Shown here: positions 8,807-14,394 of the stretch, in pieces
How positions within the stretch are numbered: the first letter of the stretch is position 1
Layout: each line of letters opens with the position of its first letter
The notes under the pieces: generated by a model
What the model saw: the letters and a program-made list of their open reading frames with translations, nothing else
Told to the model about the DNA's origin: nothing
Databases searched by the model: none
Translations under genes and position numbers: made by a program
DNA from: Sulfurimonas crateris
Lineage (GTDB): Bacteria; Campylobacterota; Campylobacteria; Campylobacterales; Sulfurimonadaceae
DNA: 64,000 bases
NCBI RefSeq assembly: GCF_005217605.1
Contig: NZ_SZPX01000002.1
Location: 1 to 64,000 of the forward strand
Direction: 5' to 3'

Positions 8807-8836
8807 AGTAATGCTATAAGGTTTGTAGCGTTACTT
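8807..8836. terminator. Possible bidirectional terminator between porin and mod operon
   Basis: An imperfect hairpin (AAGTAATGCTA / TAGCGTTACTT) lies between the convergent genes and overlaps the last codons of the TOBE gene. U-rich stretches flank it only loosely, so the call is tentative. Confidence 0.35.
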
Positions 8837-9209
8837 CACTCGCCTTCACAATCCATTGAAATTCATCTCCAACCTTGCATTTTAGTCCATGAAGTGCGCC
8901 TTTGGTGATGAGCGCATTGATGTCATGCCCTAAAAAATCAAGTCTGATATTTGCAAGAACTTTTCCGTTTTCTATATGGGTGATTTTTGAGACAAATGAA
9001 TTTCTCTCACTCACAATAGAGTCCGTAGTTGCAAGAGTAACCTCTGTCTCTTTAAAGATGAGATGCACATCCATCCCGACCTCCAGCCGATTTTCGTCTG
9101 AGTTTTCAAGAAGCAAAGAGTTGAAAATATGCCCCTCGACTTCCATAAAAACAAGCATCAGACTGTCACTCTCTTTAATAGAGACAATATCTCCCTTTAA
9201 GATATTCAT
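8814..9209 (-). CDS. Molybdate-binding TOBE-domain protein (Mop-like), operon end
   Basis: The 131 residues consist of two tandem TOBE/Mop repeats (about residues 1-66 and 67-131); the second contains the pattern FVSKITHIENGKVLANIRL. Such molbindins bind molybdate or tungstate oxyanions and act as storage or buffering proteins in the cytoplasm. The gene is last in the mod operon. Its ATG overlaps the TGA of the modD remnant (ATGA at 9209-9206), so translation is probably coupled to whatever ribosomes traverse the remnant. It is the second TOBE protein of this operon, beside the one at 11765-12166, and ModE and ModC also carry TOBE domains. Confidence 0.82.
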   Translation of the reverse strand: MNILKGDIVSIKESDSLMLVFMEVEGHIFNSLLLENSDENRLEVGMDVHLIFKETEVTLATTDSIVSERNSFVSKITHIENGKVLANIRLDFLGHDINALITKGALHGLKCKVGDEFQWIVKASEVTLQTL

Positions 9210-9447
9210 CTGTTGTCTGTTTTGGATGCAGCACGCATCTGCACTTTTATATCAAGCGGTTTTGCATGGTATGGCGAAGATGTTACTGTGAGATCAACTC
9301 CCATTTTTGCAAACTCTGTAATATTTTTAAACTCATCTTTAAGAGCAACACACTCTCTTAGAGTCTCAAAATCCATCTTTACTACCAATTTTCTAACCCA
9401 AAAGTTGTCAAGTCAAAATAGCCGCCGTCTTCAAATAACAGATCCAT
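9206..9447 (-). pseudogene. modD: Decayed modD (quinolinate phosphoribosyltransferase-like), internally deleted
   Basis: The end of the mod operon holds two pieces of a gene that looks like ModD. First, an ATG at 9447 encodes 21 residues, ending in YFDLTTFGLENW, then TAG at 9384-9382. This resembles the N-terminal (L)LxEDxxYxDLTTxxL motif of ModD. Second, in another frame, 9388-9206 encodes a tail with LRECVALKDEF, then ITEFAKMGVDLTVTSSPYHA and KPLDIKVQM. This matches the ModD C-terminus (EYAxTGVDxxVTSxPYxAKPxDIKVxM). An intact ModD has about 280 residues; here about 190 central residues are gone. The usual GGI segment between the helix and EFAK is also missing, which suggests a second deletion. 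The downstream piece may still be translated, because its stop overlaps the next start. Confidence 0.72.
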
Positions 9448-9450
9448 ATA

Positions 9451-10224
9451 CTAAGCCTTTTTTTTACTAAAAAGTTTATATGCGGAGATTAAAAGGATAA
9501 CTCCAAGCAAAGCTTCTAAATAAAGGGCATCTACTATCCCGTACGCTAAAGCTCCTATAAAAGCACCGATTATAGAACCGATTGCCATATAGATGATAAT
9601 CTCTTTAAACCCAAAAACTTCTTGCAGTCTCTTTGTTTTATTGTATTTATAAATACCCACAAGTAAAGTAGGAAACGATATAAGCAGACTTAATGTTCCT
9701 GCTGTTTTTATATCCACCGAATATAAAAGTACAATAGTAGGGATAAGAAGCTCTCCGCCGGCGACTCCTAAAAGAGAACTTATCATCCCTATACCCACGC
9801 CAAGTAAAAACCCTAAAACAATCTGAATCGGTAACGGAAGTAAAACTTCACTTTTAAAATCAAAGAACAGATGGCTAAAAAGAACAAAACTCAAAAATAC
9901 AAGTAAGATAAATATATAGCCGTTTAGCTTTTGTTTATCAATGCTTGAAGCTTTATTTGCCCCGATGTAAGCACCGATGAGAGTTCCTGCTAAAAGATTG
10001 GCAACTATATAAAAATTTGAATATATACTCTCATCTATCCCTCTAAAAATCAAGGCGAAAAATACTGTTACCAAAGAGATAATAATATTGAGCATTACCG
10101 CATGGAGGGTGTCTATTTTTAAAACACCGACTAAAAATGGAAGGCGAAACTCTGCACCTCCCAAACCGATAAGTCCTCCTAAGGAGCCTATAGAAGCTCC
10201 GCCTATAAATGATTTGAGTTTCAC
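9451..10224 (-). CDS. TSUP/TauE-SafE family membrane permease in the mod operon
   Basis: A 257-residue inner-membrane protein with about eight hydrophobic segments, arranged as two similar halves with glycine-rich starts (IGSLGGLIGLGGAEFRLP near residue 12, and MISSLLGVAGGELLIP near residue 140). These are the hallmarks of the sulfite/sulfonate exporter (TSUP) family, which moves small sulfur oxyanions or organic sulfonates. The gene starts with GTG at 10224, whose G is the last base of the modC stop (TAGTG), so it is translationally coupled to the molybdate ATPase. This placement suggests molybdate, tungstate or competing sulfate/thiosulfate as substrate; that is an inference from context. 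Confidence 0.83.
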   Translation of the reverse strand: MKLKSFIGGASIGSLGGLIGLGGAEFRLPFLVGVLKIDTLHAVMLNIIISLVTVFFALIFRGIDESIYSNFYIVANLLAGTLIGAYIGANKASSIDKQKLNGYIFILLVFLSFVLFSHLFFDFKSEVLLPLPIQIVLGFLLGVGIGMISSLLGVAGGELLIPTIVLLYSVDIKTAGTLSLLISFPTLLVGIYKYNKTKRLQEVFGFKEIIIYMAIGSIIGAFIGALAYGIVDALYLEALLGVILLISAYKLFSKKKA

Positions 10225-11078
10225 TACAAACCTCTGATCATAGGGCTAAATGCTTTAGTGCTTAAACTTACACTTTGACCTATTTTTAAACTATGAGCTT
10301 CATCATCACTTATTACCACTTCAACTAACTGTTGACCGACTGAGACGATGGCTATGTTTATCACATCTACTTTTACTATATCGAGTAACTCACCCTCAAA
10401 AGAGAATTTTTGACTGCCGCTAGTTTTAAGTAAAATATCTTTTGGCGAGCCGTCGCTTACAATCTCTCCAAAATTTAACATAATCACTCTTTGTGCTAGT
10501 CTATATATCTCACTTGGATCATGGCTTACCATAATTGTTGTCGTACCAAACTCTTTATGGAGTGTTAATATCTCTTGTTGAAGTTTTGTTCTCATCTCAG
10601 GATCAAGTGCCGATAAAGGCTCATCCATAAGTAAAAGTTTTGGTTTGTTCATCATAGCACGACAAAGACTCACACGCTGTTTTTGCCCACCGCTTAGAGT
10701 GTTTGGCAGTCTTGTCTTTAGTTCAGCCAACTCTGTCATCTCTAGTAGACTCTCTGCTAATCGCTTATCTTTGTGTACATATAGTAAATTATCAAGTACG
10801 CTCATATTATTAAAGAGTGCATAATCTTGAAATACAAACCCTATTTTCCTTTTTTGCGATGGTAAACAAAACTTCTTATCAAGCCAAATTTCATCACCTA
10901 TTTGAATAGTTCCGCTAGCTTCTTCAAGACCTGCTAAAATTCTTAAAAGTGTAGTTTTTCCACTTCCGCTTTGCCCTGCAAGTGCGACAAAGTCACCATC
11001 TTCAACAGTTAGATTTACGCTCAAATCCATTTGACCGTCTGCACCATGGAGTTTTTTATTTATAGCTATTTTTATCAC
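10224..11078 (-). CDS. modC: Molybdate ABC transporter ATP-binding protein ModC
   Basis: The ATPase subunit that powers molybdate import with ModA and ModB. Within 284 residues the ABC elements are complete: Walker A GQSGSGKTT (near 34-42), Q-loop region FVFQDYALF, signature LSGGQKQRV, Walker B LLLMDEP, and switch histidine in SHDPSE. Residues ~220-284 form a C-terminal TOBE domain that can sense molybdate and feed back on transport. It lies 1 base after modB and shares one base with the TSUP gene downstream. The gene order modA-TOBE-modB-modC supports the substrate assignment. Confidence 0.93.
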   Translation of the reverse strand: MIKIAINKKLHGADGQMDLSVNLTVEDGDFVALAGQSGSGKTTLLRILAGLEEASGTIQIGDEIWLDKKFCLPSQKRKIGFVFQDYALFNNMSVLDNLLYVHKDKRLAESLLEMTELAELKTRLPNTLSGGQKQRVSLCRAMMNKPKLLLMDEPLSALDPEMRTKLQQEILTLHKEFGTTTIMVSHDPSEIYRLAQRVIMLNFGEIVSDGSPKDILLKTSGSQKFSFEGELLDIVKVDVINIAIVSVGQQLVEVVISDDEAHSLKIGQSVSLSTKAFSPMIRGL

Positions 11079-11079
11079 T

Positions 11080-11772
11080 TTATACTCCTATCTTTTTATT
11101 CTGTTTGCCGTTAAAAACATAAACACTAAGAAGTACCAAAAAGCTAATAACCACCATGATTGCACTGTAAATATGAGCTGAAGTATAATCCATTATTTCA
11201 ACCATCTCATAAATAGCAACAGATGCTACTTTTGTCTCACCCGGGATGCTTCCTCCAACCATCAAGACAACTCCAAACTCTCCGACCGTGTGGGCAAATG
11301 TAACTATAATAGCAGTCATAAGTGCCGGTTTCATGTTTGGAAGAGCAACTTTAATTATAGTTTCAAACTTACTTTTACCGGCTAAATAGCTAGCTTCGAG
11401 CATATTTTTATTTATAGATTCAAATCCCCCTTGAAGAGGTTGCACCATAAACGGAAGAGAGTAAAAAATACTAGCTACTACAAGCCCCGTAAAGTTAAAA
11501 ACAAGTTTTACCCCAAAAACATCTTCAAAAAACACCCCAATAGGAGAGTTTTGTGATAATGCCACAAGGATATAAAAACCTAAGACAGAAGGCGGCAGCA
11601 CAAGAGGAAGCGCTGTTAAACTCTCCCAAAACGGCTTCATCTTTGAGTTTGTTTGAGATAGATACCAAGCCAGAGGGATACTAATAATAAAAAGTATCAA
11701 AGTTGTCAAACCCGCTAGTTTAAAAGAGATCAGAAATGGCTCAAATTCTAACTCATGAAACAGATCAATCAT
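11080..11772 (-). CDS. modB: Molybdate ABC transporter permease ModB
   Basis: Inner-membrane channel subunit of the molybdate importer, with about five transmembrane helices. The cytoplasmic coupling loop (EAxxxAGxxxxxxxxxVxLP) is visible as EASYLAGKSKFETIIKVALP. The hydrophobic N-terminal helix begins LISFKLAGLTTLILF. I chose the ATG at 11772 (230 residues). A GTG four codons earlier is also in frame. Either start overlaps the end of the TOBE gene, whose TGA is at 11767-11765, so coupling is likely. The product would pair with ModC encoded 1 base downstream. Confidence 0.92.
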   Translation of the reverse strand: MIDLFHELEFEPFLISFKLAGLTTLILFIISIPLAWYLSQTNSKMKPFWESLTALPLVLPPSVLGFYILVALSQNSPIGVFFEDVFGVKLVFNFTGLVVASIFYSLPFMVQPLQGGFESINKNMLEASYLAGKSKFETIIKVALPNMKPALMTAIIVTFAHTVGEFGVVLMVGGSIPGETKVASVAIYEMVEIMDYTSAHIYSAIMVVISFLVLLSVYVFNGKQNKKIGV

Positions 11773-12166
11773 CACAAATCTCACTTATTGAAACTTCACT
11801 TGCTTTTATAAAAGCCATGACCCTATCTCCTGCTTTTAAATTCATTCGTTTAGATGAATCCACGGTAATAATTGACTCCAAATCAGTGTCAAAAAACTTA
11901 AGTTTTATGTTGGATAAAAGTTGCCCGTTTTCACAAGATACAATGGTTGTTTCTAGTTTATTTGAGTAACTAACCTCTCCGCTGAAATCTTTGGCAATTG
12001 CTATATGAGATGGCTTGACGGCAAGCTTCACTTTTGTTCCAACTTCGATGGCATCAGTTAAATCCAAACTCATCATAGATAAAGTTTGATTATGACAATC
12101 AAACTTTACTATATGCAAACTATTACAAGCTTCTATTTGTGTTACAGTTGCAATCAAACTGCTCAT
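11765..12166 (-). CDS. Tandem TOBE-domain molybdate-binding protein between modA and modB
   Basis: A 133-residue cytoplasmic protein made of two TOBE/Mop repeats (about 1-65 and 70-133). The second repeat ends with the typical VMAFIKASEVSIS. It resembles molbindins and the ligand-binding half of ModE, without a DNA-binding domain. Its ATG overlaps the modA stop (ATGA) and its 3' end overlaps modB, so it is firmly embedded in the transporter operon. It may buffer molybdate at the transporter or modulate ModC; the exact role is not known from sequence. It resembles the protein at 8814-9209 but is clearly diverged from it. Confidence 0.82.
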   Translation of the reverse strand: MSSLIATVTQIEACNSLHIVKFDCHNQTLSMMSLDLTDAIEVGTKVKLAVKPSHIAIAKDFSGEVSYSNKLETTIVSCENGQLLSNIKLKFFDTDLESIITVDSSKRMNLKAGDRVMAFIKASEVSISEICDD

Positions 12167-12909
12167 GGAACCATATATCCAAAATCAATTAGTATTTTTT
12201 TCGCTTGAGCACTTAACATAAAATCATAAAATGCTTTCGCATCACTGTTGTCTTTAGCATTTTTAATGATTACAATCCCTTGGTCAATCGGGGTGTAAAG
12301 CTTAGAATCCACATCTACCCAATGCACACCCTCTTTGTACTGAGTCATTTTAGGGCTGTAGAGTGAAGATTTTGCAATGAAGCCTATATCTGCAGCTGTT
12401 ACAGCATAAGAAACTGTTTGGGAGATAGATTCTGCATATACAAATTTACCCTCTACATCAGCTAATACTCCGGCATTTTTTATAGCTTCAAGAGCCGCTT
12501 TACCGTACGGGGCAGTTTTTGGATTTGCTATTGCTATTTTCTGGATACTTTGATCTTTAAGAAGATTTATTGATTTTGAAAAATCTTTTTGACTATTGCT
12601 CAGCATCGCTAAACTTCCTTGTGCATACACAACCGGTACCGTAATCGCAGTACCTTCTTCATATAAGTTTTGCGGAAACATCATATTTGCCGCCATAAAA
12701 AGTTGGTATGGCGCACCGTTTTTAATTTGAGCAGTGAGTTTTCCACTACTCCCTAAAGTTACCTTTACTTGTGTGTCGGGATTTGTTTTATGAAACTCCT
12801 CCAAAAGGGTATCCATAGCATAACTCACATTTGCAGCAACGGCTACATTGATAGTTCCTGCAAACAGACTCATACTTAAAACCATTAAACTTAAAATTAT
12901 TTTTTTCAT
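12163..12909 (-). CDS. modA: Molybdate-binding periplasmic protein ModA
   Basis: The periplasmic substrate-binding protein that delivers molybdate (or tungstate) to ModBC. Of 248 residues, the first ~17 (MKKIILSLMVLSMSLFAG) are a signal peptide. Family features follow: the VAVAANVSYAMDTLLEEF start of lobe 1 with anion-binding serine, the TLGSSGKLTAQIKNGAPY loop (SSGKL), ANPKTAPYGKAALEAI in lobe 2, and the C-terminal FYDFMLSAQAKKILIDFGY. It lies 9 bases after the porin gene and overlaps the TOBE gene by 4 bases. Confidence 0.94.
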   Translation of the reverse strand: MKKIILSLMVLSMSLFAGTINVAVAANVSYAMDTLLEEFHKTNPDTQVKVTLGSSGKLTAQIKNGAPYQLFMAANMMFPQNLYEEGTAITVPVVYAQGSLAMLSNSQKDFSKSINLLKDQSIQKIAIANPKTAPYGKAALEAIKNAGVLADVEGKFVYAESISQTVSYAVTAADIGFIAKSSLYSPKMTQYKEGVHWVDVDSKLYTPIDQGIVIIKNAKDNSDAKAFYDFMLSAQAKKILIDFGYMVP

Positions 12910-12918
12910 TTTTTCTCC

Positions 12919-14394
12919 TTAAAACAGATAATTAAGCTCAAAACGAGCATCTAAACTATCCGCATCTACTTTATCAGTATCCGTATAACCTAATCTTAAA
13001 CGCCACTGTAACTCCGGCATCATAGGTAAGTTTTGAACAAAGCCCGCGTAATAGAAGTTTTCATCAAACTGTCCTTTATTCTCATCAGCGTCTGTGTGAA
13101 GAGCAGAGAGCTGCATAAACACATCTTTATAAACTCCTGTTTTATTTGGATTTATGGTTAATTCAGCACGATAACTTTTTGTATTTGCTACCCAGTTGTA
13201 TCTTGCCATAGAACGAGTATAGCCTGCTGTTGGAAATCCTCTCCAAGGAGTCACTAAATCCGCTTCATCCATAACTTGAGAATAGCCTAGATTTAATTTA
13301 AAATTTTTATATGCTCCTACTAAACGAGCCGCTATCATTTGCGAATCAAGAGAAGAAGCATCTTTGTAGCCGCCAAATGCACCGCTTTTTCCTACTAATT
13401 TACCGTTAATAGCTGCTCCGCCAATTTCACCTGCTCCGTTATCAAACTGTTTGATGTAGCGAACACCCGGCGAGAGAGAAAAGCCATCCATGTTTATTTT
13501 GTAATTTGCCTCTGCCATTATTTCAGATACAAGCTCAGGTACTACGTAAAATGAAGTGTTGAGTTTTAAATTCTCTATAGAAGTATTCTGAATATCTCCT
13601 GTTATTAACGGGGCATCTTCTTTCCCGGCATCTTTTAGTTTTGTATATGTCAAACCCTTATGCATTGCCGAATCATCATTTTGATCCCAAGATGGGCTGT
13701 CCGATGAAGAAGAGTTTGCATCACCGTATGCCAAAACTGAGTGCGTGTCTGTATGCGCACGGAGTTTTTCTTTTGCTAGATACGCAAGTTTAATCGGAGT
13801 TTTTGAAACAAGAGTTGTGTTAAAAACTATACCGTCAAAAACGTTTGGTATCATTTTTGTATCGTTTGAAGCGGTATAAAAAGTTTCTACTAGCTGACGA
13901 CCAACTGTTATGTCACTTTTTTCTAAACCGCTATAGCGGATGTAAGCCTGCCCTAAAGCACTCATATTTTGATTTCCCGTATTGCTATAATCAAATCTAC
14001 TAAGAACATCTTGCCCTGGTTTGGCAAATTTAATGTCAGCTTCTGATAAGTTTGTAAATCCATGACTATAGTAAAGAGCGCCTCTAAAATCAAAGTCATT
14101 ATAGATGGCACTTTGATACACTAATGAACCGCCCAAACCACTTGTGTAGTGATCTTTTTGATCTGTATTTTCTTCTTCCCATTTGTACATAAATGTATTT
14201 GAGCGAAGTCTGCCGTAAAAAATCCCCTCTTTAAACATTTCTAAAAAATTATCAACTTGTTTAGGTTTTTGACTATAGACCAGTTGATAATTTGATTTGA
14301 GTGCCTGTTTAGGAACTTCGTCATTTGCACTTGTTACGGTTGTTACAAGTAGTGCCGCCGCTATAATAGTGTTTAATCTAATTTTTGTTTTCAA
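12919..14394 (-). CDS. OprD-family outer-membrane porin, first gene of the mod operon
   Basis: The protein has 491 residues with an N-terminal signal peptide (ending near TVTSAN, residue 24). It begins after the signal with the OprD-type pattern of Campylobacterota, FKEGIFYGRLRSNTFMYKWEEEN, and has repeated amphipathic strands and a C-terminal DARFELNYLF with terminal Phe. Such monomeric 18-strand porins pass small solutes. The start codon is TTG at 14394 with AAAGGA upstream. Only 9 bases separate it from modA, and a candidate ModE operator precedes it. I infer that it admits molybdate or tungstate through the outer membrane when molybdenum is scarce. Confidence 0.82.
   Translation of the reverse strand: MKTKIRLNTIIAAALLVTTVTSANDEVPKQALKSNYQLVYSQKPKQVDNFLEMFKEGIFYGRLRSNTFMYKWEEENTDQKDHYTSGLGGSLVYQSAIYNDFDFRGALYYSHGFTNLSEADIKFAKPGQDVLSRFDYSNTGNQNMSALGQAYIRYSGLEKSDITVGRQLVETFYTASNDTKMIPNVFDGIVFNTTLVSKTPIKLAYLAKEKLRAHTDTHSVLAYGDANSSSSDSPSWDQNDDSAMHKGLTYTKLKDAGKEDAPLITGDIQNTSIENLKLNTSFYVVPELVSEIMAEANYKINMDGFSLSPGVRYIKQFDNGAGEIGGAAINGKLVGKSGAFGGYKDASSLDSQMIAARLVGAYKNFKLNLGYSQVMDEADLVTPWRGFPTAGYTRSMARYNWVANTKSYRAELTINPNKTGVYKDVFMQLSALHTDADENKGQFDENFYYAGFVQNLPMMPELQWRLRLGYTDTDKVDADSLDARFELNYLF

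Follow-up and report, generated by a model that had tools for sequence, protein, structure and literature searches.

The molybdate operon and the modD remnant

The window, the whole 64-kb stretch of Sulfurimonas crateris DNA that was analyzed, contains a molybdate operon on the minus strand with the gene order modA-TOBE-modB-modC-TSUP-TOBE. The remains of a modD gene (242 bp, window 9206-9447, minus strand) are placed between TSUP and the last TOBE gene (Table 1). The head and the tail of this remnant are in different reading frames, as given by the ORF positions. The TSUP stop and the head ATG are separated by 3 nt, the head stop and the tail ATG by 5 nt, and the tail overlaps TOBE by 4 nt. 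Upstream of modA, a 491-aa ORF (window 12919-14394) has no Pfam match at 1e-3 and is porin-like by eye.

Table 1. Features of the modD remnant and of the surrounding operon, in window coordinates.
Feature	Position	Strand	Description	Basis
modA	12163-12909	-		TIGR01256, E = 2e-51
First TOBE/Mop gene of the operon	11765-12166	-	ATGA overlap with modA	
modB permease	11080-11784	-		TIGR02141, E = 9e-68
modC-like ABC ATPase	10224-11078	-		profile search
TSUP (TauE/SafE) membrane protein gene	9451-10224	-		PF01925, E = 1.7e-26
modD remnant head	9385-9447	-	21 codons (MDLLFEDGGYFDLTTFGLENW), then TAG at 9382-9384	identity to intact modD, frame, alignment
One-base insertion region	9388-9396	-	GAAAATT, GAAAT in intact modD; throws head out of frame	alignment
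554-bp deletion junction	9373-9380	-	AAAGATGG, made from the two AAAGANGG sites	alignment, repeat positions
modD remnant tail	9209-9376	-	56 codons from ATG 9376; frame open upstream to TTG 9388; stop TGA 9206-9208	TIGR01334 match
39-bp in-frame deletion of GGI loop	9313-9331 (approximate)	-	between two TTAAAAATATT repeats	alignment, repeat positions
TOBE Shine-Dalgarno position	9213-9226	-	AAAGGAG in L033 and L034, AAAACAG in the window	
ATGA	9206-9209	-	tail stop overlaps TOBE start codon, as in intact relatives	
TOBE/Mop protein gene, 131 aa	8814-9209	-	downstream partner; purifying selection	TIGR00638, E = 6.7e-16; PF03459

The first 51 bases of the head are 96% identical to intact modD (E = 8e-17), and its 21 codons, too short for a profile match, give none against TIGR01334. 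Past the head stop, about eight more residues (IGSKDGF) are ModD-like in the alignment once the one-base insertion is passed. The tail (window 9209-9388, minus strand) matches positions 247-277 of the 277 positions of the NCBIfam TIGR01334 ModD profile (31.2 bits, E = 1.5e-7). It conserves the residues KMDFETL...PYHAKPLDIKV with ModD and its reading frame has no internal stop. The first-pass annotation had described a ModD-like head of 21 residues and a ModD-like tail of about 55 residues, in different frames downstream of TSUP, and a tail stop overlapping the start of the next gene. The profile match, the DNA identity and the frames agree with this description, apart from the extent of the pieces: the tail has 56 residues from its ATG and the similarity of the head runs beyond its stop.

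A scan with the TOBE protein, one genome per species, yields five Sulfurimonas-type loci and one distant locus. Two Sulfurimonas MAGs, Kmv11 (L033) and BM502 (L034), carry at the same place an intact modD of 834 bp (277 codons) that overlaps the corresponding TOBE gene by ATGA, and the Kmv11 operon (TOBE-modB-modC-TSUP-modD-TOBE) has the gene order of the window. The remaining three close loci have TOBE directly after modA or modC. In most loci the TOBE orthologue begins within an ATGA shared with the gene before it, be that gene modD or modA. The gaps before TOBE in L045 (200 nt) and L054 (175 nt) hold no ModD-like reading on inspection; the former, between modA and TOBE (L045 1301-1500), has within it a stretch resembling an inverted repeat (ATCCTGAATCAAGTTCAGGAT), which may be a small mobile repeat.

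Compared with Kmv11, the identity of the window is about 97% over modB, modC, TSUP and the first 51 modD bases and falls in the modD tail and TOBE (window 8814-9400) to about 85-88%. The dS of TOBE is 0.70 versus 0.10-0.18 upstream. The drop in identity and the jump in dS suggest recombination in one of the lineages.

Lesions of the modD gene

Two deletions and one insertion balance the size of the remnant exactly (834 - 554 - 39 + 1 = 242 bp, from the alignment and the repeat positions). The larger deletion, 554 bp, is out-of-frame and runs from one AAAGANGG site to the other (nt 67 and 621 of intact modD), with a perfect core of 5 bp at its junction. This main loss corresponds to about 185 codons, close to the 190 or so central residues that the first-pass annotation had reported missing. 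The GGI loop, also thought to have gone, is absent, but it was lost separately: the 39-bp deletion, in-frame and between perfect 11-bp repeats (TTAAAAATATT) at nt 671 and 710, removed the residues of the loop (VSATGGINVKNI and one more residue). The inserted base is a single A and shifts the frame.

Slipped mispairing is well supported as the origin of the 39-bp deletion and likely as that of the 554-bp deletion, because endpoint repeats of such length rarely occur by chance. When deletions were placed at random in modD by simulation, endpoint homology of at least 11 bp was found in about 4.5e-5 of them and a perfect 5-bp endpoint core in about 1%. With endpoints at a perfect 11-bp repeat and at the AAAGANGG pair, the remnant resembles ordinary bacterial pseudogenes formed by slipped mispairing between short direct repeats, with no notable difference.

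The remnant is very probably a modD pseudogene. An ancestral 834-bp modD between TSUP and TOBE would have been hit by the 554-bp deletion between short similar sequences, by the 39-bp deletion between direct repeats and by the one-base insertion, in whatever order. An intact orthologue at the same place in both relatives and three disabling, exactly placed lesions bear out the gene decay proposed earlier. Rhodobacter capsulatus ModD is an example of the ModD proteins (TIGR01334) with a quinolinate-phosphoribosyltransferase (QRPTase) fold that are encoded in modABCD operons (PMC6925177). The remnant is like such genes in the sequence of its head and tail, in its location in a molybdate operon and in the ATGA overlap with TOBE, as in Kmv11 and BM502. 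It differs from them in that about 198 of 277 codons are missing, the frame is broken and the catalytic core is absent. The tail scores far below the curated whole-protein cut-off of TIGR01334 (178.85 bits) and has no Pfam match to the QRPTase_N and QRPTase_C domains, both of which are present in the modD of Kmv11 and in a second modD of the same genome (L001). A working enzyme is not encoded by the stub. The case is one of ordinary gene decay, unusually well resolved. A literature search for a retained modD stub found no study.

Selection on the tail and on TOBE

Substitutions were assigned to the window branch by three-way arithmetic with L033 and L034. On this branch the estimate for the tail is about 9.25 nonsynonymous against 2.75 synonymous changes (omega about 0.93), whereas TOBE has 12.5 nonsynonymous and 24 synonymous changes (omega about 0.14). 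The omega of intact modD between L033 and L034 is 0.17. The tail differs from TOBE (Fisher p = 0.018) and from intact modD (p = 0.030), with only about 12 tail changes behind both comparisons. By these counts the tail appears to evolve about neutrally and TOBE to be under purifying selection. Approximately half of the amino-acid changes of the tail fall within its last six codons; without these codons there are about 3-4 nonsynonymous to 3-4 synonymous changes and neutrality is less clear. The in-frame 39-bp deletion and the stop-free tail run counter to decay, but both could be chance.

Possible coupling of the tail to TOBE

The lesions spared the 3' end of modD together with its ATGA, and ribosomes could pass from TSUP to the head, from the head to the tail and from the tail to TOBE. 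The pairing between the TOBE start region and the anti-Shine-Dalgarno sequence is +0.4 kcal/mol in the window versus -6.3 kcal/mol in both intact relatives. With ATGA at its start and without the Shine-Dalgarno site of the relatives, TOBE probably relies for its translation on ribosomes that have read the tail to its end. Reporter work on -4 nt overlaps has shown that termination-reinitiation needs no more of the upstream gene than its final 15 nt and that it is nearly lost across gaps of about 20 nt (Huber et al. 2023, PMC10666635). The window is similar in its ATGA overlap and in the short upstream 3' region that would be enough; it differs in that the upstream partner is a pseudogene tail and the coupling is putative.

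The tail was suggested in the first-pass annotation to be kept for this coupling. In its full form, the stub would now be a pure cis element retained by selection for coupling and not for a protein: termination at the tail TGA would lead to re-initiation at the overlapping TOBE ATG, and the tail ORF would be the only efficient ribosome route to a TOBE start that has lost its own Shine-Dalgarno sequence. The overlap and the pairing energies fit the dependence, as do the 5 nt between the head stop and the tail ATG, the ATGA overlaps of most TOBE loci and the purifying selection on TOBE. On the other hand, the overlap was inherited from intact modD, and selection need not be invoked to explain it. 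About 15 nt would be enough for re-initiation, not 56 codons, and the near-neutral tail also argues against retention. The loss of the Shine-Dalgarno sequence may equally be degradation, and alternatives exist, such as a TOBE with its own Shine-Dalgarno sequence (L035) or one coupled directly to modA. Among the genus genomes examined, no other lineage turned up that clearly retains such a stub. Selective retention is considered unlikely; if true, it would offer a compact test of whether dead genes can be retained for ribosome delivery. The remnant is better read as an ordinary pseudogene that plausibly acts in cis, though only passively: the link between TOBE expression and the rest of the operon probably persists as a side effect of where the lesions fell.

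Other readings of the remnant

It is very improbable that the tail is a functional 56-aa small protein in its own right. The open frame with an ATG and the residues conserved with ModD are compatible with such a protein, but it would lack the GGI segment and most of the barrel, no Pfam domain is matched and the substitutions are near-neutral. No stand-alone homologue is seen in the genus among the matches listed: a query with the Kmv11 ModD against 21 genus genomes returned full ModD, matches to the paralogous NadC, contig-edge pieces and one weak match of 58 residues (E 0.001, one TGA) in G005. The latter (G005:C114:3695-3865) shares its contig with a TOBE-domain match about 840 bases away and is possibly another remnant.

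The lesions are known from one assembly (100% complete, 0.23% contamination) of one strain, and an intact gene could have been broken by a sequencing or assembly error. This too has very little probability, given two deletions each flanked by similar sequences and the substitutions that remove the Shine-Dalgarno sequence and change the final codons of the tail; its relaxed divergence is a sign of genuine decay. Programmed -1 frameshifting that joins head and tail into a mini-ModD is rejected as extremely improbable. In its favor, the open frame of the tail extends about 12 codons ahead of the ATG and overlaps the head. On inspection, however, this overlap (codons ACT TTT GGG TTA GAA AAT TGG TAG) shows no canonical slippery heptamer, and the product would be devoid of nearly all of the enzyme.

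A second, intact ModD in the genome

The first-pass annotation also held that this lineage had dropped ModD. This is contradicted by a full-length ModD elsewhere in the same genome (G000:C5:125705-126505, L001), which scores 232.8 bits against the TIGR01334 cut-off of 178.85. Its gene is flanked by a FecCD-permease/ATPase pair on one side and by a periplasmic binding protein on the other, and TonB/ExbBD-like and receptor-like genes (by sequence reading) and a two-TOBE-domain protein are found nearby. The cluster resembles an importer of the MolBC-A type. In Haemophilus influenzae, MolBC-A is a type II molybdate importer that works in parallel with ModBC-A (PMC4031551). The S. crateris genome is similar in having a FecCD permease, ATPase and periplasmic-binding-protein cluster and a separate Mod operon. 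The cluster differs in that it also includes ModD and, from the sequence reading, TonB/ExbBD-like and outer-membrane-receptor-like genes, and its substrate is putative.

In the ModD tree, L001 groups with L011 (97/93), and L033, L034 and L016 form a separate clade (100/99). The two ModD copies of the genome are accordingly placed in different ModD clades. A recent duplication within the genome is rejected on the basis of these clades, and also because the tail DNA of the remnant is 86-87% identical to L033 and L034 versus 78% to the intact copy of its own genome.

The Kmv11 and BM502 genomes (G037 and G031, matched by identical ModD) have only the Mod-operon copy. In a sample of 399 genomes of the order, 153 contain ModD (match at E <= 1e-40), always as a single full-length copy, although these 153 share descent and are not independent. 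The stub of a second copy is clearly recognized in one of 135 genus genomes, that of the window. As the ModD-bearing genomes of this sample keep exactly one full-length copy, the stub appears to be what is left of the copy given up from a redundant modD pair, and redundancy followed by the loss of one copy is the simplest reading. The decay was probably tolerated because the genome also has a full-length ModD in the MolABC-like transporter cluster. The locus cleanly shows one of two apparently redundant modD genes on its way out, and every lesion can be assigned to the sequence that flanks it. That each of these genomes has a single copy suggests that the ModD proteins of Mod and Mol loci can replace one another, which is a lead on a protein of poorly known function.

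A TSUP-like gene is placed directly after the Mol-locus modD in L010 and L011; TSUP is thus a neighbor of ModD not only in Mod but also in Mol loci. In L017 (63-1043), an HTH_25 helix-turn-helix domain followed by a TauE/SafE (TSUP) match forms a single open frame directly upstream of modD.
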